Below are positions 2,205 through 10,644 of a stretch of DNA of 20,205 bases, in pieces. The notes under the pieces are model-generated. The model had not been told where the DNA came from, searched no databases, and was given only the letters and a program-made list of their open reading frames with translations. A program made the position numbers and the translations under genes. Every line of letters begins with the position of its first letter. Position 1 is the stretch's first letter. This DNA is from a virus. The DNA lies in IMG/VR virus record IMGVR_UViG_3300037485_000153, positions 1 to 20,205 of that record, one strand, 5' to 3'.

Positions 2205-2719
2205 TATTGTAATTGTCTTACTTTGTTTTTATAAACTCTGATTATTTCTTTGATTTCATCGATAGTCCATTTTTTTTCTATGTGTGCTTTTCCTTGAAGT
2301 TCAATTAATCTTTCTGCTCCTATCCGTTTTTCTATACCAATTTGATAGTTTAGTAAGTTGCCTGATAAATAAGTGTTACACGCTTCGCATTGTAAGTGAA
2401 CATTGTCCTCGTCAAAGCGAACGTTTGAATGTCCTCCGCTTGAAAAGTAGTGTCCAGCATTTTTTTTCTTTGGAGGTAAACCACACGATATGCACCATAG
2501 TCCGTTATCTCGTAGCCTAATAAATTGATTGAATATTGTCTGAGCTTCCTTTAACCAATCCTGTGTAGTTTTTAGTTCTGTTTTCATTCGTGTTTTCGTC
2601 TCTTTCCACGTCTTTTGTTTAATCTCCTCTGAAAATGCTTTAAGACATTCTATCTCCGTACAGTATTTCATATTAAACCTAATCGGCTCAAACTTCTGTT
2701 TGCAGTGTTTACATCTCAT
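2204..2719 (-). CDS. ninG: NinG / Rap-type recombination protein
   Basis: A 171-residue protein matching the lambda NinG (Rap) family. It has an N-terminal zinc-binding pair (C3, C6, C20, C25), a basic coiled segment (K/R-rich, 32-50), then the core LRDNGLWCISCG (69-80), NAGHYFSSGGHSNVRF (87-102), and LQCEACNTYLSGN (109-121), with C76, C79, H90, C111 and C114 forming the HNH-like metal site. Lambda Rap cleaves branched recombination intermediates. I use ATG 2719; a TTG six bases upstream is also in frame but less likely. It overlaps the methyltransferase end by 11 bases and is followed by a 1-base overlap with the next gene. Confidence 0.88.
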   Translation of the reverse strand: MRCKHCKQKFEPIRFNMKYCTEIECLKAFSEEIKQKTWKETKTRMKTELKTTQDWLKEAQTIFNQFIRLRDNGLWCISCGLPPKKKNAGHYFSSGGHSNVRFDEDNVHLQCEACNTYLSGNLLNYQIGIEKRIGAERLIELQGKAHIEKKWTIDEIKEIIRVYKNKVRQLQ

Positions 2720-3371
2720 AGTCAAAAATTGAAGTTTGATTAGTATCTGATTTTTTAATAATTCCTAATGCAGTTTCAAGAATTGTTCTACCTGCTTCAT
2801 AGTCAACAAGATTTCTTGCCATTTTACAAACACGTTGCTTACCTTTGTATTGAGTAAAATCGTAGTCGTGAAATTTAGACAGCTCTGAAACTTTTGTATT
2901 AATAAAATTACTTGCTTTTCTATCATTCAAATCAACAGGTAAGACAAAATTTGTCCAATACAAATGCCTACCTCTTTTTTGTGCGGTAATTAATGGTTCG
3001 TAATATGGAATCACATTTTCAACACAATACTTTCCTTTGAAAAAATGTTGAAGTAAAATTATTTCTTCGTATAACATCATATTTGGATAAGTCGCTTTTG
3101 ATTTTCTTTCACCTTCACCTGTGTTTGTTTTTCTCATTCTGCTATGAGTAGGACAAGGTGGTGAACTCCATATAAAATCAAACTCCTTGTAATGGTCTAA
3201 CAAATATTGATGTGCATCTGCTACAATTACAGTATCATTTGGAAATCTTTCTTGATAAAGTCTTGCAGCTTCAGAGTCTAACTCTACTGCAGTTACTTCA
3301 ATGTTATCCGCTACTTCATCCCATTTGTAACGGTTACCTCCTAAACAAGCGTATAAGTTTAATATTTTCAT
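2709..3371 (-). CDS. short cytosine-C5 DNA methyltransferase
   Basis: A 220-residue protein with the ordered motifs of C5-cytosine methyltransferases: motif I variant LNLYACLGG (4-12) for S-adenosylmethionine, ELDSEAARLY (30-39), motif IV SSPPCPTHS (69-77) with catalytic C73, motif VI VENV (117-120), and motif VIII QKRGRHLYW (131-139). It is far shorter than typical enzymes (300-400 residues), with a minimal target recognition region and a degenerate C-terminal motif (RNLVDYEAGRTIL) in place of the usual NAVxPxxa. No restriction gene is adjacent, so it is an orphan, probably protecting phage DNA from host restriction. Its start shares one base with the upstream stop (TGATG). Confidence 0.85.
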   Translation of the reverse strand: MKILNLYACLGGNRYKWDEVADNIEVTAVELDSEAARLYQERFPNDTVIVADAHQYLLDHYKEFDFIWSSPPCPTHSRMRKTNTGEGERKSKATYPNMMLYEEIILLQHFFKGKYCVENVIPYYEPLITAQKRGRHLYWTNFVLPVDLNDRKASNFINTKVSELSKFHDYDFTQYKGKQRVCKMARNLVDYEAGRTILETALGIIKKSDTNQTSIFDYEM

Positions 3372-3774: not shown

Positions 3775-4067
3775 AATTCTACGTTTTTGTATTTTAGTTC
3801 GTGTTCAAGTTCTTCAATTCTTTTTTTCAATTCTCCGTTTATATGCAGACATCGGTTTATTTCTCGTCCGTGTAAACGTAGTTCTGTCTCTAACTCAACG
3901 ATTGCTAACTGCACTTGCTTTAAGTCGTTCTCCGTATCTCTAGCTCCGTTTATGTACGCTTCTGCTGATGGTCGTTTTTCTTGTAGTTCTTCTCTTGTTA
4001 GCTTTACCTTCCAAATGTTCTTTTGTATAAGTCCTTTGATGTAAAGTAGTTTTAGTCCTATGTCCAT
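3771..4067 (-). CDS. coiled-coil protein downstream of helicase
   Basis: A 98-residue protein. The first 35 residues (MDIGLKLLYIKGLIQKN..., EELQEKRPSAEAYINGARD) are helical and basic. From about residue 45 to the end a long coiled coil is evident: ENDLKQVQLAIVELETELRL and LKKRIEELEHELKYK with heptad leucine/isoleucine spacing. It overlaps the helicase stop by 10 bases and is coupled by ATGA to the following 49-residue gene. Its place suggests a partner of the replisome, perhaps oligomeric, but there is no direct evidence. Confidence 0.7.
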   Translation of the reverse strand: MDIGLKLLYIKGLIQKNIWKVKLTREELQEKRPSAEAYINGARDTENDLKQVQLAIVELETELRLHGREINRCLHINGELKKRIEELEHELKYKNVEL

Positions 4068-4987
4068 CCTTTGTTATTTAGTGCGTTTAATTTTTGTTCT
4101 GTCATTGTTATCTTTGCTTGAAAAGGTTCTTTTACTCTGTAAGGTTTCAATGGGTCTTTTCCGTGTATTTCAAAGCCGATTCCTTTATTGAAATCACATA
4201 CAACAGGCTCATCTATTCCTGTATGTTTACCTCCTGTTTCCATATCCTTAACTTTTTCTACTTGTACCCACGTTTTGTACTTTAATGTTTCGTGTTTGAT
4301 TAGTCTGTGGATAACTATCATATCATCACACCTGTTTAGAAACGCCTTACCACCTTCAATGTGGTCTTTTAACGGTGCTTTAAGATGTCCTTTTAATTCG
4401 CCATCTGGATACAGGTTTCCTGTTCTTCCGCTTTCTGTATTTGGATGCGTGTTTATGTAGATAGTCATTCCCGTTTGATTTACAAATTGTCTAGCTTGGT
4501 TCATAAATTCGTAGTTTCCAGCAAAGCTCATCTCTCTATCAAGTCCTGTGAACGGGTCAATCAATCCAACATCTGCTCCGCTTTCTAAAAATAGCTTTAA
4601 TACATCAGCAGGTTTGTAAAGTTGTGCATTATCAATGAACACAAATGACTGTTCTAAAAATGCAAGGTCTCCACTAATTTGAGAATGGCTAAGTTCTTTA
4701 AATGGTTTACCTCTGTACATCTGAATCATATCACGCAGGATTTGTCCTTTCTGATTCTCTCCTGACCAAATACAGAAGGTTAAATTGTGCTTTAAAGCTA
4801 ATGTAAGAAAGTACCAATTAATCCAATATGTTTTCCCTACGTTGTCGTGTCCTAAAATTATATTTAGTTGTTTAGGTTTGAATCTCAAATGCTCATCTAG
4901 GAAGCAGTCTAATCCTAATCCTTGTTTTATCTTTCCGTCTTTTACGTCTAGTAAATATTGTAGGGAATCTCCTTGTTTGAGTATCAT
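4058..4987 (-). CDS. DnaB-like / RecA-fold replicative ATPase
   Basis: A 309-residue protein with a RecA-type ATPase core of the DnaB/Twinkle helicase class. Walker A is GHDNVGKT (46-53); SGEN (75-78) carries the likely catalytic E77; VGLIDPFTGLD (140-150) is Walker B with D144; MTIYINTHP (174-182) is the sensor strand; EGGKAFLNRCDDMIVIHR (211-228) matches the DnaB H4 region that contacts DNA. It lacks the DnaB N-terminal primase-binding domain, so it is a helicase-core-only form or a loader-type ATPase. It lies 2 bases after the DUF6291 replication protein, the usual initiator plus helicase arrangement in these phages, and should unwind phage DNA. Confidence 0.85.
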   Translation of the reverse strand: MILKQGDSLQYLLDVKDGKIKQGLGLDCFLDEHLRFKPKQLNIILGHDNVGKTYWINWYFLTLALKHNLTFCIWSGENQKGQILRDMIQMYRGKPFKELSHSQISGDLAFLEQSFVFIDNAQLYKPADVLKLFLESGADVGLIDPFTGLDREMSFAGNYEFMNQARQFVNQTGMTIYINTHPNTESGRTGNLYPDGELKGHLKAPLKDHIEGGKAFLNRCDDMIVIHRLIKHETLKYKTWVQVEKVKDMETGGKHTGIDEPVVCDFNKGIGFEIHGKDPLKPYRVKEPFQAKITMTEQKLNALNNKGWT

Positions 4988-4989
4988 AG

Positions 4990-5628
4990 TTATTTGTTTA
5001 AGATTGCTAAGATACTATCACTTTCCGTTTTTATCGTCCTGTCAGCATATTTATCTAATGTTTCTGCTCTACTAAAAAATTCAGGTGTGCAATACTGGTA
5101 GTTGTTTTCTTTGTGGTATGGATTGTCTTTGCAGTTTCTTATAGCATTAATAATATCTTCTTTCTTGTACCCATCCTTTAGCCTAGCTTTGTAACTACGT
5201 TGAACTTTATCACCCACTACTTTGAAGTTTCTACCAAAAGATTTATTCACAAACTCAAGCAACGCTTGATAGTCTATATTATCTATTACATTAACATTAT
5301 CATTAACATTATCATTAACAGCTATTTTTGCTATCGTACTAATGCGTTTGCTATCGTTTGCTATCTCTTGCCATCGTTTGTTAGCTCCTGCTATACCTGC
5401 TTCACTTCTTTTAACTCGCTTTTCTTCAAATAATTTGAGGTCACGTTTCAGTTGCTGCTTGATAGGTTCAAAAGCAATTTCTACAATCAAGTCATCAGAG
5501 CTTGGATTCTCATCACTTACATAACTGTAAATGTGTTTGATTAATTTACCTGCTATTTCATCAGGTAGTTTGTTCCATAAGTCCTTTTGGTCAACGTAAA
5601 GGATAAACGATTTTTTGTCTTTTGCCAT
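4990..5628 (-). CDS. DUF6291 / Phg_2220_C-like replication initiation protein
   Basis: A 212-residue protein starting MAKDKKSFILY. I chose ATG 5628 because family members I remember begin MAKDKKSF and because a structured RNA ends just upstream; ATG 5637 is an alternative. The N-terminal part (1-75, LPDEIAGKLIKHIYSYVSD) is DUF6291-like and ends with the recurrent RSEAGIAGANKRW (74-86). A low-complexity NDNVNDNVN linker follows, made by a 12-base DNA tandem repeat. The C-terminal part (about 116-195: ALLEFVNKSFGRNFK, YKARLKDGYKKEDIINAI, YCTPEFFSRAE) matches the Phg_2220_C / DnaD-like helicase-loading fold. Likely loads the DnaB-like ATPase encoded next. Confidence 0.8.
   Translation of the reverse strand: MAKDKKSFILYVDQKDLWNKLPDEIAGKLIKHIYSYVSDENPSSDDLIVEIAFEPIKQQLKRDLKLFEEKRVKRSEAGIAGANKRWQEIANDSKRISTIAKIAVNDNVNDNVNVIDNIDYQALLEFVNKSFGRNFKVVGDKVQRSYKARLKDGYKKEDIINAIRNCKDNPYHKENNYQYCTPEFFSRAETLDKYADRTIKTESDSILAILNK
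5289..5320. repeat. 12-base tandem repeat in the linker of the replication protein
   Basis: The unit CATTAACATTAT (plus strand) occurs at 5289-5300 and 5301-5312 and begins a third time at 5313-5320. Being a multiple of three, it changes protein length without breaking the frame, and encodes the NDNV repeats between the two domains of the replication protein. Confidence 0.85.
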
Positions 5629-5647
5629 CTGCAACATTTTAAGCAAT

Positions 5648-5729
5648 AAAAAAGCCCATTAAGTTTCGTGGTTGCAGCACTACTCCCTAATGGACTTTCA
5701 ATAATTTTTTTATAAGGTCTGCAACACCT
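5648..5729 (-). ncRNA. structured leader or small RNA with complementary hairpin loops
   Basis: On the minus strand hairpin 1 (5729-5715) is AGGT, a 7-base loop GTTGCAG, then ACCT. Hairpin 2 (5695-5654) has a 10-bp outer stem GTCCATTAGG / CTTAATGGGC with two G-U pairs, an internal loop GAGTA / GAAA resembling a loop E (AGUA/GAA) motif, a 3-bp stem GTG/CAC and a 7-base apical loop CTGCAAC. The two 7-base loops are perfectly complementary and could kiss. Six T residues follow hairpin 2, as in an intrinsic terminator. A second GTTGCAG (5635-5629) sits directly before the ATG of the replication gene and could compete. It may be a terminator-attenuator, a small RNA, or both. Confidence 0.6.
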
Positions 5730-5732
5730 GTA

Positions 5733-5740
5733 CAAATATA
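5733..5740 (-). promoter_or_regulatory. -7 element TATATTTG upstream of the leader RNA
   Basis: A perfect TAnnTTTG box ends 3 bases before hairpin 1 of the leader RNA. No TTTG is seen 18 bases upstream, so the -33 element is weak or absent and the promoter may need an activator. The predicted transcript would begin at or near the first hairpin. Confidence 0.5.
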
Positions 5741-5747
5741 GACTTAA

Positions 5748-6158
5748 TTATTCTAATAAAGTTGCATCAGCATTAAAATTTTTATATCTACCTTCTTTAA
5801 TCCATCGTTTAACTCTCTGGAGCTTGTACAAATTAGTAGATTCCATAACGTCTGAAATTAAATCTCTTGGTTCAGCATAATACTCCGTGTTTTTTAAGAA
5901 TACCTGATATTCACGAATAAAACTTGTGTACTCGTGTTTATTGTACTTGTTCATATTCTTATGAGTTTCGATGTTATGTAAAACCGATGCGTGATGCTGA
6001 TTAAAATACGAACCTATTTCTCCAAGTGTTAACTGCTCTTTTCGTAGCCTGTGCATTAGGTAGCATTTCTTGTAGATGATTTCTCTATGTCTATTGCGTT
6101 TGTTTAATCCATCTCGTTCTATCAGGTACGTTACCTTGTCCATTAGGTTGTCTTTCAT
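5748..6158 (-). CDS. DnaA domain IV-like DNA-binding protein
   Basis: A 136-residue protein. Residues 25-65 resemble the DnaA C-terminal DNA-binding domain: REIIYKKCYLMHRLRK, then LGEIGSYFNQHHASVLHNI (45-63), which parallels the DnaA signature IGxxFggRDHsTVxxA, with HHAS in place of DHST. There is no AAA+ ATPase region, so it cannot act as a full DnaA. It probably binds DnaA-box-like DNA in phage replication control or competes with host DnaA. A perfect DnaA box lies 1.5 kb upstream over the promoter of its own operon. The ATG overlaps the previous 48-residue gene as ATGA. It is the last gene before the structured leader RNA. Confidence 0.75.
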   Translation of the reverse strand: MKDNLMDKVTYLIERDGLNKRNRHREIIYKKCYLMHRLRKEQLTLGEIGSYFNQHHASVLHNIETHKNMNKYNKHEYTSFIREYQVFLKNTEYYAEPRDLISDVMESTNLYKLQRVKRWIKEGRYKNFNADATLLE

Positions 6159-6975: not shown

Positions 6976-7309
6976 AGTGCGCCCAATGTGTAAAGTCTTC
7001 CGTTTCTAAATCCTGCATCTTCTCAAGTGATTGATTGTAAAACCAAAGCGTGTTATTTCTAAACTCTTTTAATTTTTGATTTAAGAAAGCAGTATAATCT
7101 TCCGTGATTTCAATCGTTCCTGTTTCATCCGTAGTTTCGTGAAAAAACGTACCTGACAAAGGAGTAACCGAAAAGTCTATATAATTACTTGTACATTCGT
7201 CTGACCATTCAAAGTCACATAATACACTATAACAATACTCTCCGTAAACGTATTCTAGCTCCATTGTGTATGGACTATATTTGTAATCTGTTATTTCAAA
7301 GTTGTTCAT
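6965..7309 (-). CDS. 114-residue strongly acidic early protein
   Basis: A 114-residue protein, MNNFEITDYKYSPYTMELEY to its end HWAHYGI. By my count it has about 22 Asp/Glu against 5 Lys/Arg, and it is rich in Tyr, Phe and Trp. The first half looks beta-stranded and the part from about residue 73 (FLNQKLKEFRNN) helical. It lies one base after the upstream membrane protein gene. No family is recognised. The acidity and early position would suit a host-inhibitory or DNA-mimic protein, but this is speculation. Confidence 0.7.
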   Translation of the reverse strand: MNNFEITDYKYSPYTMELEYVYGEYCYSVLCDFEWSDECTSNYIDFSVTPLSGTFFHETTDETGTIEITEDYTAFLNQKLKEFRNNTLWFYNQSLEKMQDLETEDFTHWAHYGI

Positions 7310-7310
7310 C

Positions 7311-7508
7311 TTATTTGTTTTTAGTAATTAGTTGTCCGTATTTCTCTAATACAGGTGATTGAACGTGTTTAGCTTCGATTTGCGGAGCTTTCTCTGTTTT
7401 CATATACGTTGGTTGCGTAGCAATAAAATAACTCATTACAATCCAAAATAATGATAAAGCGAATACAGTACCGATAATGTCCTTTTGATTTTCGTTTAAA
7501 GTTTTCAT
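7311..7508 (-). CDS. 65-residue single-span membrane protein
   Basis: The start is taken at ATG 7508 (MKTLNENQKDIIG) because it overlaps the stop of the first early gene as ATGA; an upstream in-frame start at 7547 lies inside that gene. One membrane helix covers about residues 12-30 (IGTVFALSLFWIVMSYFI), followed by a basic, Pro-containing tail (ATQPTYMKTEKAPQ ... LITKNK). The topology could be either way. Unknown function; second gene of the early operon. Confidence 0.7.
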   Translation of the reverse strand: MKTLNENQKDIIGTVFALSLFWIVMSYFIATQPTYMKTEKAPQIEAKHVQSPVLEKYGQLITKNK

Positions 7509-7669
7509 AGTCCTAAAGTTTTTAATAAGTTGTGAATAGTTGACCAACGTGTAGTCGCTGATTCTGTAATAGGGTCGTGAATTCCTAAGATGTCAATACA
7601 TTGCTGAAGGTCATCGTATAATTTACCTTCTTCTGCTTTAATTAAATCAATCATTTCTTGTTTTTTCAT
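7505..7669 (-). CDS. 54-residue first gene of the early operon
   Basis: ATG 7669 starts a 54-codon frame (MKKQEMIDLIKAEEGKLYDD ... LLKTLGL), stop TGA at 7507-7505 overlapping the next ATG as ATGA. It is all helical and amphipathic, with WSTIHNLLKTLGL at the end resembling a short recognition or dimer helix. It is the first gene behind the early promoter at 7703-7732, with a leader of about 30 bases. Being the first product made after infection it is a candidate host-takeover or regulatory peptide; no function can be read from sequence. Confidence 0.75.
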   Translation of the reverse strand: MKKQEMIDLIKAEEGKLYDDLQQCIDILGIHDPITESATTRWSTIHNLLKTLGL

Positions 7670-7695
7670 AGCGTTTTAATTAGTTTGTGAATTAA

Positions 7696-7704
7696 TTATA
7701 CACA
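7696..7704 (+). promoter_or_regulatory. perfect DnaA box
   Basis: TTATACACA matches the 9-base DnaA box consensus TTATNCACA. It overlaps the downstream edge of the early promoter -7 element, so binding by host DnaA or the phage DnaA-like protein would block or modulate early transcription. A poorer match (TTATACATG) lies at 7843-7851. Confidence 0.55.
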
Positions 7705-7732
7705 AATATAAATACTATTTCTGAACTACAAA
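7703..7732 (-). promoter_or_regulatory. early promoter, Bacteroidota type
   Basis: On the minus strand TTTG (7732-7729), an 18-base spacer and TATATTTG (7710-7703) match the Bacteroidota primary sigma consensus. The predicted start lies about 25-30 bases before the first early ATG at 7669. It should drive the tightly coupled run of small genes down to the DnaA-like gene. Confidence 0.8.
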
Positions 7733-7808
7733 ACTTTTTCAACAATTTTTTTTAATTATTTTACATTTATTTTTAAAATGCTTGATTTTACAGGGGTTTG
7801 CGATGTAT

Positions 7809-7848
7809 GGAAAAACGTGTAATGTAAAGGAAAAACGCTTAATTATAC
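7809..7848. repeat. two 20-base tandem units starting GGAAAAACG
   Basis: GGAAAAACG occurs at 7809-7817 and again at 7829-7837, 20 bases apart (about two helix turns), each followed by a similar TAAT-containing segment. Same-face spacing next to an AT-rich stretch is typical of iterons or paired operators. Confidence 0.55.
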
Positions 7849-7919
7849 ATGATTGCGGATATTTTTCGTATGTATTTCATCCAATAAATCAAAATAGTGG
7901 CAAATGTTTGTAACAAAAC

Positions 7920-8034
7920 AAGGGTAAATATGTGACATTCTTGTAATAGAATAAGGGTAAATGTCAAGTTACTCGTCACAAATACTTGATAAATTGGGAC
8001 AAGAATGTCGCAAATATCTGCTAAATATGCGACA
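7920..8034. repeat. cluster of direct and inverted repeats around GTCRCA
   Basis: AAGGGTAAAT is repeated at 7920 and 7953. GTCACAAATA (7975-7984) and GTCGCAAATA (8007-8016) are 32 bases apart. ATATGTGAC (7928-7936) and ATATGCGAC (8025-8033) carry the same GTCRCA core in the other orientation. An 11-base perfect inverted repeat, GACATTCTTGT (7934-7944) and ACAAGAATGTC (7999-8009), links them, and TGTCGCA / TGCGACA (8006-8012, 8028-8034) forms a hairpin. Probably protein-binding sites. Confidence 0.6.
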
Positions 8035-8087
8035 AAATTTAAGGTTATAGCTTGAATTAATGATATGAAACATAAGGTTATACCCAT

Positions 8088-8118
8088 AAAAAAAGGGAAT
8101 CCATTTCTGAACTCCCTC
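8088..8118 (-). terminator. intrinsic terminator of the late operon
   Basis: On the minus strand GGGAGTTC, loop AGAAAT and GGATTCCC form an 8-bp stem (two G-U pairs, extendable by two pairs), followed by seven T residues. It lies about 40 bases after the phosphoesterase stop and separates late from early transcription. Confidence 0.85.
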
Positions 8119-8155
8119 TCTACTAAAAACAATCTAACTATGAACTGCAAATATA

Positions 8156-9193
8156 TTAAAATAAATGGGAAATTCTGCAGATTTGACCAAATTCTTTATG
8201 ATGCAAAAATCCTTCCAAAGCCTTAGGAACGTGAGCATATCCCGAACGATGATGCCACGAGTCTGTCCCTGAGGGACTTCTAAGAGATTCAACAGTTACT
8301 CCAATGTAATCCTTTGATGTCTTGTGATGAACGTGATGAGTATAAACATACCTGTGCTTAGACAAGCTCCATTCGTGTGGAAACTCGGTAGCCATCAATA
8401 AAGGTAGGTCAGCTTGTTTAGCTCCGTCTCCGTGTGTAGTTCCGATTAGATTCTTTCCATATAGAAATCCCTTGCGATGAGCAATAGAGCAATCAAAAGT
8501 AATATTATCACAATTTCTAAACCACGTCTGTATGCAATCTGCAAGGAAGAAGCCGTGTGTATAGTCGTGATTAGATGGATTAAAGGTAAAATGCACATCA
8601 GCAATAGATAGCAAAGTTTCCAAGATGTCAACATATAAACGTTTTGCGATTAGAAAATTAGAGTACCACATTCCGTCTGTGTCTTGTGGCGTTCCTGCAG
8701 TAGTGGTTCGTCTTGGAGTATCAATATGAAGTATGTCGTTTCCTCCAATAAATAGAATCTTGTCAATGTTGAAGCCAGTGCATTTGTCAAGTATTCCTTG
8801 CACTCCTTCTTTAACTCGTTTAACTGCGATTTGATTGTTGTATTCTTCACCTGTTTCAAACGCATCGCATAGTTTACCTATGTGGATGTCAGCAGGGTCT
8901 ACCACTAGTAAGTGACCATCCGTTGATGGATTCCTAAAGATTGTAGGATATTCAGGTTTAAAATCTTTTATGTCCTGCAGGATTAACTCCTGTAATTCTT
9001 TGTAATTTACTTCCTCAGCTTCTTTAAAGTTCGGATTTTTAAAAAATAGAGAAGCGTTTTTAGACTTTAACCATCCGTGTTTTACATCTGCATCGTCTAA
9101 ACCCATTCCATTGGATTCGATTTTTATTGCCCTATAAGATTCTAAAATTTCAATCTCGTCTTCTTGTAATCTGAATCTCGTTTGTTTACTCAT
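8156..9193 (-). CDS. calcineurin-like metallophosphoesterase
   Basis: A 345-residue protein with the complete metallophosphoesterase motif order: DIH (102-104), GGND (150-153), SNHD (207-210, standing for GNHD), THGD (253-256) and YTHHVHH (284-290, standing for GHxH). These residues bind the two metals that cleave phosphodiester bonds. The N-terminal 80 residues (FRLQEDEIEILESYRAIK...) are helical and may bind DNA. Phage proteins of this layout are often found in Bacteroidota phages and could be a DNA phosphodiesterase or nuclease of SbcD/Mre11 type, but the substrate is not visible. It is coupled to the spanin gene by ATGA and is the last late gene before the terminator. Confidence 0.85.
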   Translation of the reverse strand: MSKQTRFRLQEDEIEILESYRAIKIESNGMGLDDADVKHGWLKSKNASLFFKNPNFKEAEEVNYKELQELILQDIKDFKPEYPTIFRNPSTDGHLLVVDPADIHIGKLCDAFETGEEYNNQIAVKRVKEGVQGILDKCTGFNIDKILFIGGNDILHIDTPRRTTTAGTPQDTDGMWYSNFLIAKRLYVDILETLLSIADVHFTFNPSNHDYTHGFFLADCIQTWFRNCDNITFDCSIAHRKGFLYGKNLIGTTHGDGAKQADLPLLMATEFPHEWSLSKHRYVYTHHVHHKTSKDYIGVTVESLRSPSGTDSWHHRSGYAHVPKALEGFLHHKEFGQICRISHLF

Positions 9194-9669: not shown

Positions 9670-10187
9670 CCGTTCAAAAATTTAGCGTTTTTACCTGTTG
9701 AGATTGCGTAAAAGAATCGTTTTCTTTCGTTGATTAATTCATCAAATAGCTTACGTGGTTCGATTGAATTTGCAAGTAATATTGTTTTTGTTCCTATGAT
9801 TCCGTCTATTGTGCAAAGTAAACCACAGTGATTGATTGCTACCTGTAAAGATTTGGACGCTTGTTTAACACCAGAACCCCAAGCCATACCTGTAACAAAT
9901 ACTGCAATGTTTTGAGAGTTGTAAGCATCACCTCGAACTTTATCCCAATATCCTTTTTTAAAGACTTTAAACCAATCTTCCGTGTTCATCGCATAGAATC
10001 TATGGTCGTTTTCTACTCCATAAAATCCTGCCCAAGTTGCGTAAGTTATTCCTGCGTTCGTGTGATATCCCGTTTTTCCTTTGTAAGCAGTAGGACACGG
10101 ATAACTAGAAGCTGAGTCTGATTTATCTCTACTTAAACCACCTTCCCATTTCTTAGTGAACTTAACGTACTTTTCTATTATTGTCAT
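9624..10187 (-). CDS. GH108-family endolysin
   Basis: A 187-residue protein. The catalytic EGG motif lies at E15 (KKWEGGLSRDK), followed by GYHTNAGITYATW (40-52), matching the GH108 N-acetylmuramidase family, and a peptidoglycan-binding-type C-terminal half with TIDGIIGTKT (126-135). It hydrolyses the glycan strands of peptidoglycan. There is no signal peptide or membrane helix, so release to the periplasm depends on the holin encoded 31 bases upstream. The insertion between EGG and the GIT block (SDSASSYPCPTAYKGK) is typical of the Bacteroidota versions I remember. Confidence 0.88.
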   Translation of the reverse strand: MTIIEKYVKFTKKWEGGLSRDKSDSASSYPCPTAYKGKTGYHTNAGITYATWAGFYGVENDHRFYAMNTEDWFKVFKKGYWDKVRGDAYNSQNIAVFVTGMAWGSGVKQASKSLQVAINHCGLLCTIDGIIGTKTILLANSIEPRKLFDELINERKRFFYAISTGKNAKFLNGWLNRLNDYQKTFTP

Positions 10188-10218
10188 AAATTGTTTGATT
10201 TTAGAACAATCGAATGTT

Positions 10219-10644
10219 TTATTTTAAATCGTCTAAGGTTTCTTTTCCTCTTTTGGCAAACTTAACAAACTTATCCCATACGTTAACTCCAGTAACACTA
10301 AAGTAACTTTCGTTAATACTTTTAACTTCCGTGTAAACGCAGAACGTAGTAAACGCTTTTGTCATCAATAAATCAATCGCTATAAAGTGTCCTAAGATAT
10401 CCGCTACAACGTATTTTTCTAGTAAGAAGATAAACACAATAGCACCACTATACAAAAGGCTCTTAGAAATCGTGTGTGATAGTCTACGTGAACGAATAGA
10501 CTTCCATCCGCTTTTTTTAACTGAACGCCAAATGCCAAAACATGTATCTAAAATTATTGCTATAACTGCGATTAATACTAAAGGCTTTACAGGTGTTAAA
10601 ATCGTAAGCACTGAAAAAACGAGGAGAGAGATATTAGTTTTCAT
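10219..10644 (-). CDS. phage holin (Cph1/holin_4-like)
   Basis: A 141-residue membrane protein. A long hydrophobic N-terminus (5-38, with VLIAVIAIILDTCFGIW) is followed by a basic loop (RSVKKSGWKSIRSRRLSH, 40-57) and two further helices (about 60-78 and 84-105). The D-x-x-F-G-I-W after helix 1 and the basic, Ser-containing loop are typical of the phage holin_4/Cph1 family. It should form the inner-membrane lesion that times lysis and releases the endolysin encoded just downstream. Its start overlaps the previous gene as ATGA. Confidence 0.8.
   Translation of the reverse strand: MKTNISLLVFSVLTILTPVKPLVLIAVIAIILDTCFGIWRSVKKSGWKSIRSRRLSHTISKSLLYSGAIVFIFLLEKYVVADILGHFIAIDLLMTKAFTTFCVYTEVKSINESYFSVTGVNVWDKFVKFAKRGKETLDDLK

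Follow-up and report, generated by a model that had tools for sequence, protein, structure and literature searches.

What does the stretch directly upstream of a phage replication initiation gene do when it carries two small hairpins with fully complementary 7-nt loops, and a copy of one loop recurs at the start codon? The locus lies in a viral record, from a Bacteroidota phage, of which positions 1 to 20,205 were analyzed (referred to here as the window). The first-pass annotation of this DNA had proposed a switch acting on transcription and translation of the phage's replication gene. Here, the element was examined in the window and in its relatives, and possible modes of action were weighed.

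The Element and Its Surroundings in the Window

The -7 box, both hairpins, their loops, the six-T tract and the second GTTGCAG all read in the sequence exactly as the first-pass annotation had described them (Table 1). Absent from that annotation was an in-frame ATG at 5637-5635, which overlaps the second GTTGCAG (ATG TTG CAG ATG); were translation to begin at this ATG, the start codon itself would be covered by the copy.

Table 1. Features of the element and of the adjoining genes; positions are those of the window.
Feature	Position	Strand	Basis
-7 promoter box, Bacteroidota type, TAnnTTTG, TATATTTG	5733..5740	-	sequence
Hairpin 1, predicted 5' end of RNA: stem AGGT 5729-5726 / ACCT 5718-5715, 7-nt loop GTTGCAG 5725-5719	5715..5729	-	sequence
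Linker, A-rich, single-stranded, conserved ATTATT	5698..5714	-	type A alignment
Hairpin 2 outer stem: AAGTCCATTA 5697-5688 with TAATGGGCTT 5661-5652; 10 bp, one U-G	5652..5697	-	
Hairpin 2 internal motif: AGTA opposite GAA	5684-5681, 5667-5665	-	
Hairpin 2 inner stem: GTG with CAC, 3 bp	5680-5678, 5670-5668	-	
Hairpin 2 loop: CTGCAAC, 7 nt	5677-5671	-	
Six T after hairpin 2 stem, predicted intrinsic terminator tail	5648..5653	-	sequence
Second GTTGCAG (third partner), directly before ATG 5628-5626	5629..5635	-	sequence
Replication initiation gene, DUF6291 + Phg_2220_C; possible in-frame ATG at 5637	4990..5628	-	Pfam PF19808 3e-21; PHROG 428/18020 replication initiation
Next gene, primase/helicase-like ATPase	4058..4987	-	phrog_18375 8e-19, phrog_239
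Upstream gene, DnaA C-terminal (domain IV)-like helix-turn-helix protein	5748..6158	-	PF08299 5.5e-6, below gathering score

Taken alone, the window made no more than a suggestive case for the element. Each of the 7-mers was present 3-5 times in the window, with about one occurrence expected per strand. Folding energy of the whole leader gave a z of -1.35 in a single-sequence test, which is weak evidence. Hairpin 2 alone gave a fold z of -2.2 in the window and of -3.4 to -4.6 in three of four relatives. It is the comparison with relatives that settles the reality of the element.

Elsewhere in the window, positions 2709-3371 encode a 220-aa protein resembling C5 cytosine methyltransferases. It matches the N-terminal third only of the Pfam model and is possibly truncated or divergent. 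Near 7-9 kb (7000-9000), a clearly negative GC skew gives way to values around zero or slightly positive. Annotated DnaA-like genes occur near the replication region in the cultivated phages tooticki6-1 and phi19:3, and elsewhere in the genome of Harreka_1.

Conservation and Covariation of Loops and Stems

In total, 80 related loci were fetched by the replication protein alone, and their upstream stretches were then read. The element lay within 160 nt of the gene in 59 of the 73 protein-fetched loci that held at least 160 nt upstream; five other loci (L012, L039-L041, and L043) contained it further upstream.

A non-circular set of 91 hairpins was chosen by hairpin 2 alone (AGTA-NNN-loop-NNN-GAA with inner stem pairing, an outer stem and T5), ignoring hairpin 1, from the protein loci and from scans with patterns that left the loop free in part or in full. 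Under a strict criterion, 73 of these 91 hairpins had a complementary hairpin 1 loop; the count for shuffled loops averaged 1.4 and never exceeded 5. Once larger hairpin 1 loops and 3-bp stems were allowed, the count rose to 90 of 91. The set contained 26 distinct kiss sequences, all compensated, and combinations of foreign loops drawn from these 26 alleles were complementary in 3.8% of cases.

Covariation was measured as APC-corrected mutual information on a structure-registered matrix of 41 unique elements of types A and C (described below). Thirteen pairs from hairpin 1, the kiss and the inner stem were tested, and 12 of them fell within the top 14 of 703 column pairs; pairing of the inner stem was required for entry to the set, that of hairpin 1 and the kiss was not. 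The other two of the top 14 were outer-stem pairs, and the thirteenth tested pair hardly varies. Hairpin 1 pairs held ranks 1, 2, 5, and 6 of the 703. In type B, 11 of the 16 expected pairs occupied ranks 1-11 of 496 (19 unique rows, partly selected on complementarity). Each of the four positions of the hairpin 1 stem was represented by 5-6 standard pair types among 82 elements, and G-U pairs occurred within stems.

The kiss took in the whole hairpin 2 loop in 85 of 88 elements. There were no extra pairs beyond the loop on one side in 82 of 88 and on the other side in 85 of 88, and elsewhere there were at most two. Complementarity thus ends at the loop borders, a pattern that points to two intact hairpins able to kiss and away from an alternative helix. 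Predicted energies of the kiss duplexes ranged from -6 to -12.6 kcal/mol. Loop-loop (kissing) pairing is, as judged from these alignments, conserved while the loop sequence itself varies freely, and a physical contact between the two loops is its probable meaning. The kissing pair that had been proposed from the window is therefore borne out by its relatives, which exclude the contrary case of stems and loops lacking conservation and covariation.

The AGTA...GAA motif, a candidate loop E (bulged-G) motif, was kept in types A and C, although most of the A/C elements that did not come from the protein search had been detected with patterns that include it; type B differs at this motif. One recombinant type B element (L160:2930-3018) combined hairpin 1 and hairpin 2 loops of different alleles in a mismatched kiss. 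This natural test case shows that recombination between modules occurs and that the match can be imperfect.

Architectures of the Element

The elements fell into two main architectures, A and B, with a third form of hairpin 1 (type C). In type A, which includes the window, hairpin 1 has 4 bp and a fully paired loop of 6-7 nt. In type B, hairpin 1 has 5-6 bp and a 14-nt loop made up of the 8-nt kiss and a conserved 6-nt tail (ATTATA, ACCATA, or similar), while hairpin 2 has a 4-bp inner stem and a loop of AR plus 8 nt; the type B linker, RGTATTATT, resembles that of type A. Type C pairs a type A hairpin 2 with a hairpin 1 bearing a 13-nt loop (TCT-kiss-ATT). Linker length (median 16 nt) was uncorrelated with stem or helix length and so decides nothing between pairing in cis and in trans, leaving a cis geometry short of proof.

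Promoter Box, Predicted Terminator and Exchange of the Cassette

A strict TAnnTTTG was found within 20 nt of hairpin 1 in 65 of 84 unique A/C-type upstreams and in 33 of 34 unique B-type upstreams, mostly 2-6 nt from the hairpin (expected, 0.014). The promoter box recognized immediately upstream in the window is thus tied to hairpin 1 in the relatives as well. The stem of hairpin 2, which contains G+C and is followed at once by six U, has the sequence of a predicted intrinsic terminator. It was not listed by a simple terminator scanner; the internal loop and inner stem exceed the 3-8-base loop limit of that program. The T tract was present across the aligned relatives, and its end lay a median of 10 nt from the start codon (86 of 88 elements), in agreement with the earlier description of a terminator-like hairpin directly before the gene. 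With the -7 box locked to hairpin 1 and the T tract about 10 nt before the start, promoter, RNA and gene start constitute one cassette.

By sequence comparison, this cassette is exchanged as a unit between near-identical phages. The window and one relative (L003), whose proteins are 95% identical, have the promoter edge, T tract and gene in common and differ in the interior, which belongs to type A in the window and to type B in L003. Exactly one element, either A or B, was present in 37 of 38 phage records. Where several elements occurred in one genome, they carried different loops: G033, the L056 and L102 records (two elements each), G450, and tooticki6-1. The 47.5-kb phage G033 (L121 record) contained three cassettes, at 7935-8018, 10174-10258, and 21351-21432, with the loops GTTGCAG, GTTGAGG, and GTCGAAG. 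Each of these three preceded an HNH-type homing endonuclease gene, two of which were nearly paralogous.

The genes downstream of the cassette included replication initiators of several kinds, homing endonucleases (NUMOD4-HNH and GIY-YIG), an antirepressor, and others. A control specific to replication, as the first-pass annotation had envisaged, does not hold for a cassette that precedes such different genes.

A Copy of the Hairpin 1 Loop at the Start Codon

In 44 of 90 elements, a count that allows for an ATG inside ATGTTGCAG, the whole hairpin 1 loop recurred no more than 30 nt beyond the T tract; in 43 of these 44 the copy lay 0-5 nt before an ATG. The copy changed in step with the loop across seven alleles: GTTGCAG, GTCGCAG, GTGCAG, AAGCAG, GAGCAG, AGGCAG, and ATGCAG. 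A control using the loops of other alleles gave 0 matches in 500 trials. These phages thus offer the hairpin 2 loop a choice of two partners, and the three-way match that had been noticed in the window recurs in each of the seven alleles. Most copies preceded replication-type genes and one (L511) preceded an HNH-type gene.

Roughly half of the A/C-type elements had no copy, and type B elements almost never had one; L047 and L055 (CTTCGAC before the ATG) are type B elements that do. A second partner at the start codon, on which one arm of the switch first proposed depends, is thus upheld for about half of the A/C-type elements and is missing from the remainder; with so many elements devoid of the copy, translational control cannot be the general function.

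Distribution Among Phages

The element is carried by many viruses of Flavobacteria, before DNA-replication or homing-endonuclease genes. Five cultivated phages contained it: Olleya phage Harreka_1 (MT732457; GTGGTGG/CCACCAC), Flavobacterium phage tooticki6-1 (NC_048844; two copies, one with GTCGTCG and one with GTGAGACG/CGTCTCAC), Flavobacterium phage 11b (AJ842011; CGGGCAGG/CCTGCCCG), Flavobacterium phage FCL-2 (KM873719; CATCCAC/GTGGATG), and Cellulophaga phage phi19:3 (NC_021789; CTCTCAC/GTGAGAG). The first four were called by a finder with 0.08 chance matches per genome strand, and the phi19:3 element was read by eye. The second tooticki6-1 element matched the model weakly and was confirmed by eye. 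The element was located in the replication region in Harreka_1, FCL-2, 11b, phi19:3, and, for one copy, tooticki6-1. In the tooticki6-1 element at L586:2151-2240, the two halves of the kiss (GTGAGACG/CGTCTCAC) are swapped between the hairpins relative to type B elements such as L046.

An integrase (PF00589) was found in one of 38 uncultured records, some of which may be fragments, and most of these phages are therefore probably virulent. Phage phi19:3 carries an annotated tyrosine recombinase. No element was seen in Riemerella phage CRP19 or Vibrio phage D478, both of which have a distant homologue of the gene. Two models of the element, R1 and R2, gave 0 matches in 395 Bacteroidota genomes, under stricter filters and with no positive control, so that absence from those genomes does not follow. 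Application of the loop pattern to genome contigs was abandoned as too loose, yielding chance matches, and second R1 matches in G453 and G448 proved on reading to contain no element.

The first-pass annotation had suggested a scan with Rfam models. At the gathering score, no Rfam 15 covariance model matched the window, including Flavo-1 (RF01705) and c4 antisense RNA (RF01695). For ten related loci searched at E values up to 2, the sole match was a sub-threshold Phe_leader located elsewhere in L008. The open-access literature searched provided no description of the element and no phage transcriptome covering it. As far as Rfam 15 and that literature tell, the element represents an undescribed RNA family of flavobacterial phages.

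Proposed Mechanism and Alternative Readings

We consider the element to be, with reasonable probability, a promoter-coupled attenuator leader; wherever the start-codon copy is present, the loop of its terminator would have a choice of two partners. RNA polymerase would start at hairpin 1 and in most cases terminate at hairpin 2, releasing a short transcript of about 80-85 nt, and the kiss between the hairpins would set how frequently transcription stops at hairpin 2. In a read-through mRNA, the hairpin 2 loop may instead cover the start codon and lower translation; the copy would then be an added translational layer in those phages that have it. Short RNAs from sister genome copies, bearing the same loops, could compete in trans and render the system dosage-sensitive, with output falling as genome copies (and short RNA) accumulate. 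In the window, the effect would be to hold back or to time production of the replication initiator. Several points count against an attenuator leader: no -33 TTG box was seen in the window, many elements have no start-codon copy, linker length fails to follow stem length, L160 has a mismatched kiss, and a short RNA with self-pairing loops would be a poor inhibitor in trans unless the cis kiss is weak.

Loop diversity and swapping, together with the use of different loops inside one genome, point to a role for specificity, favoring some action in trans; loop drift compensated in cis could be an alternative source of that diversity. A tentative alternative, possible although we hold it somewhat doubtful, makes the terminated short RNA the main product, a specificity RNA that would target transcripts of co-resident genomes by loop pairing, with the variable loops defining interference groups. 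Plasmid incompatibility or P4/P1 immunity serves as its model. The exchange of alleles between near-identical phages, the 26 alleles with their 3.8% cross-complementarity, the different loops inside multi-element genomes, and the A-B-A layout created by the start-codon copy all speak for it, but a single molecule carries both complementary loops, which would pair in cis, cis-compensated drift could give the same diversity, and the lack of a tyrosine integrase in 37 of 38 phage records makes lysogenic immunity unlikely. A bolder proposal, which we regard as rather unlikely, is RNA self-recognition of virulent phages: short RNAs would sense the number of sister genomes, hypervariable loops would tell own from foreign genomes in a co-infected cell, only replication initiators or homing endonucleases with matching loops would be restrained, and alleles would be swapped to escape interference.

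Other readings place the function away from the downstream gene or from RNA. A structural small RNA, nuclease-resistant through a kiss that ties its 5' and 3' hairpins, might have another target (a host protein or defense system) while the neighboring gene is expressed from elsewhere. Hairpins at both ends of the predicted short RNA would suit such a molecule, and the conserved AGTA/GAA motif could bind a protein; we nevertheless judge it improbable, since the fixed orientation and spacing to the start codon (about 10 nt in 86 of 88) and the start-codon copy in 44 of 90 tie the element to the gene that follows. Action at the DNA level, with the inverted repeats as protein sites, or as a single-stranded DNA hairpin or replication primer at an origin, gains something from the adjoining replication genes and DnaA-like gene in the window, and a transcript of this kind might prime replication. 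It is very improbable given loop letters that vary freely with pairing kept, G-U pairs in stems, the fixed T tract and -7 box, and the same cassette before homing endonucleases. The statistics of the window alone were modest enough to admit an ordinary terminator of the upstream operon with a chance loop match, a reading of negligible probability now that it is refuted by the partner loop in 90 of 91 independently chosen hairpins and by the covariation ranks.

Comparison With Known RNA Systems

The P4 CI and P1/P7 c4 RNAs derive from their target's own transcript, contain short stretches complementary in the order target-RNA-target, and control an operon by termination or translation. The leader described here has a comparable arrangement of complementary A-B-A segments (GTTGCAG/CTGCAAC/GTTGCAG) before a replication gene, found in seven alleles and absent in half of the elements. 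It differs in that both complementary stretches are hairpin loops forming, with their own promoter and terminator, one cassette; in that the hosts are Flavobacteriia and the phages mostly lack an integrase; and in having no match to the Rfam c4 model. The c4 antisense RNA (RF01695) is listed for Proteobacteria and phages (PMC2864571).

Copy-number control by plasmid antisense RNAs (ColE1 RNA I/II, the pT181 and pIP501 attenuators, R1 CopA/CopT, and pMV158 RNAII) is similar in its fully complementary 6-8-nt loops that kiss at a replication gene, in loop specificity, and in attenuation of a rep gene. In contrast to a sense RNA and its countertranscript, both loops here are on the same strand and molecule. 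An antisense -7 box was not conserved (6 of 90 elements, with a background of 9.5%). A YUNR U-turn in a recognition loop is a mark of plasmid countertranscript control (PMC4485353); here this motif occurred in one of the 26 loop alleles only. Classical attenuators and riboswitch expression platforms likewise combine a leader, an intrinsic terminator and a downstream gene, but the present element has no mutually exclusive helix overlapping the terminator stem, and complementarity is confined to its loops. The IncI/IncB repZ leader forms a pseudoknot when the loop of one hairpin base-pairs with another site close to the start of rep, which alters translation. The effect of that pairing is activation; in the present element, the second site touches or overlaps the start codon, and the loop of the 5' hairpin is a rival for pairing with hairpin 2.

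Loop-loop contacts assemble the phi29 pRNA into multimers. The ornate RNAs GOLLD and ROOL form homo-oligomers (PMC12286853). The loops of the present element could in a similar way assemble RNAs into multimers; it is much smaller than these RNAs, occupies a leader position, and has no demonstrated sequence relation to them. Taken as analogy, and short of established membership, the element resembles the loop-based RNAs of copy-number control and phage immunity.

The loop-loop contact in this widespread RNA family has unusually clear covariation. With it, virulent phages of an under-studied host group gain an RNA that is a candidate for controlling genes of replication and homing. Its natural, mutually distinct loop pairs are open to direct tests in the cultivated phages and might find use as RNA regulators that need no further design.
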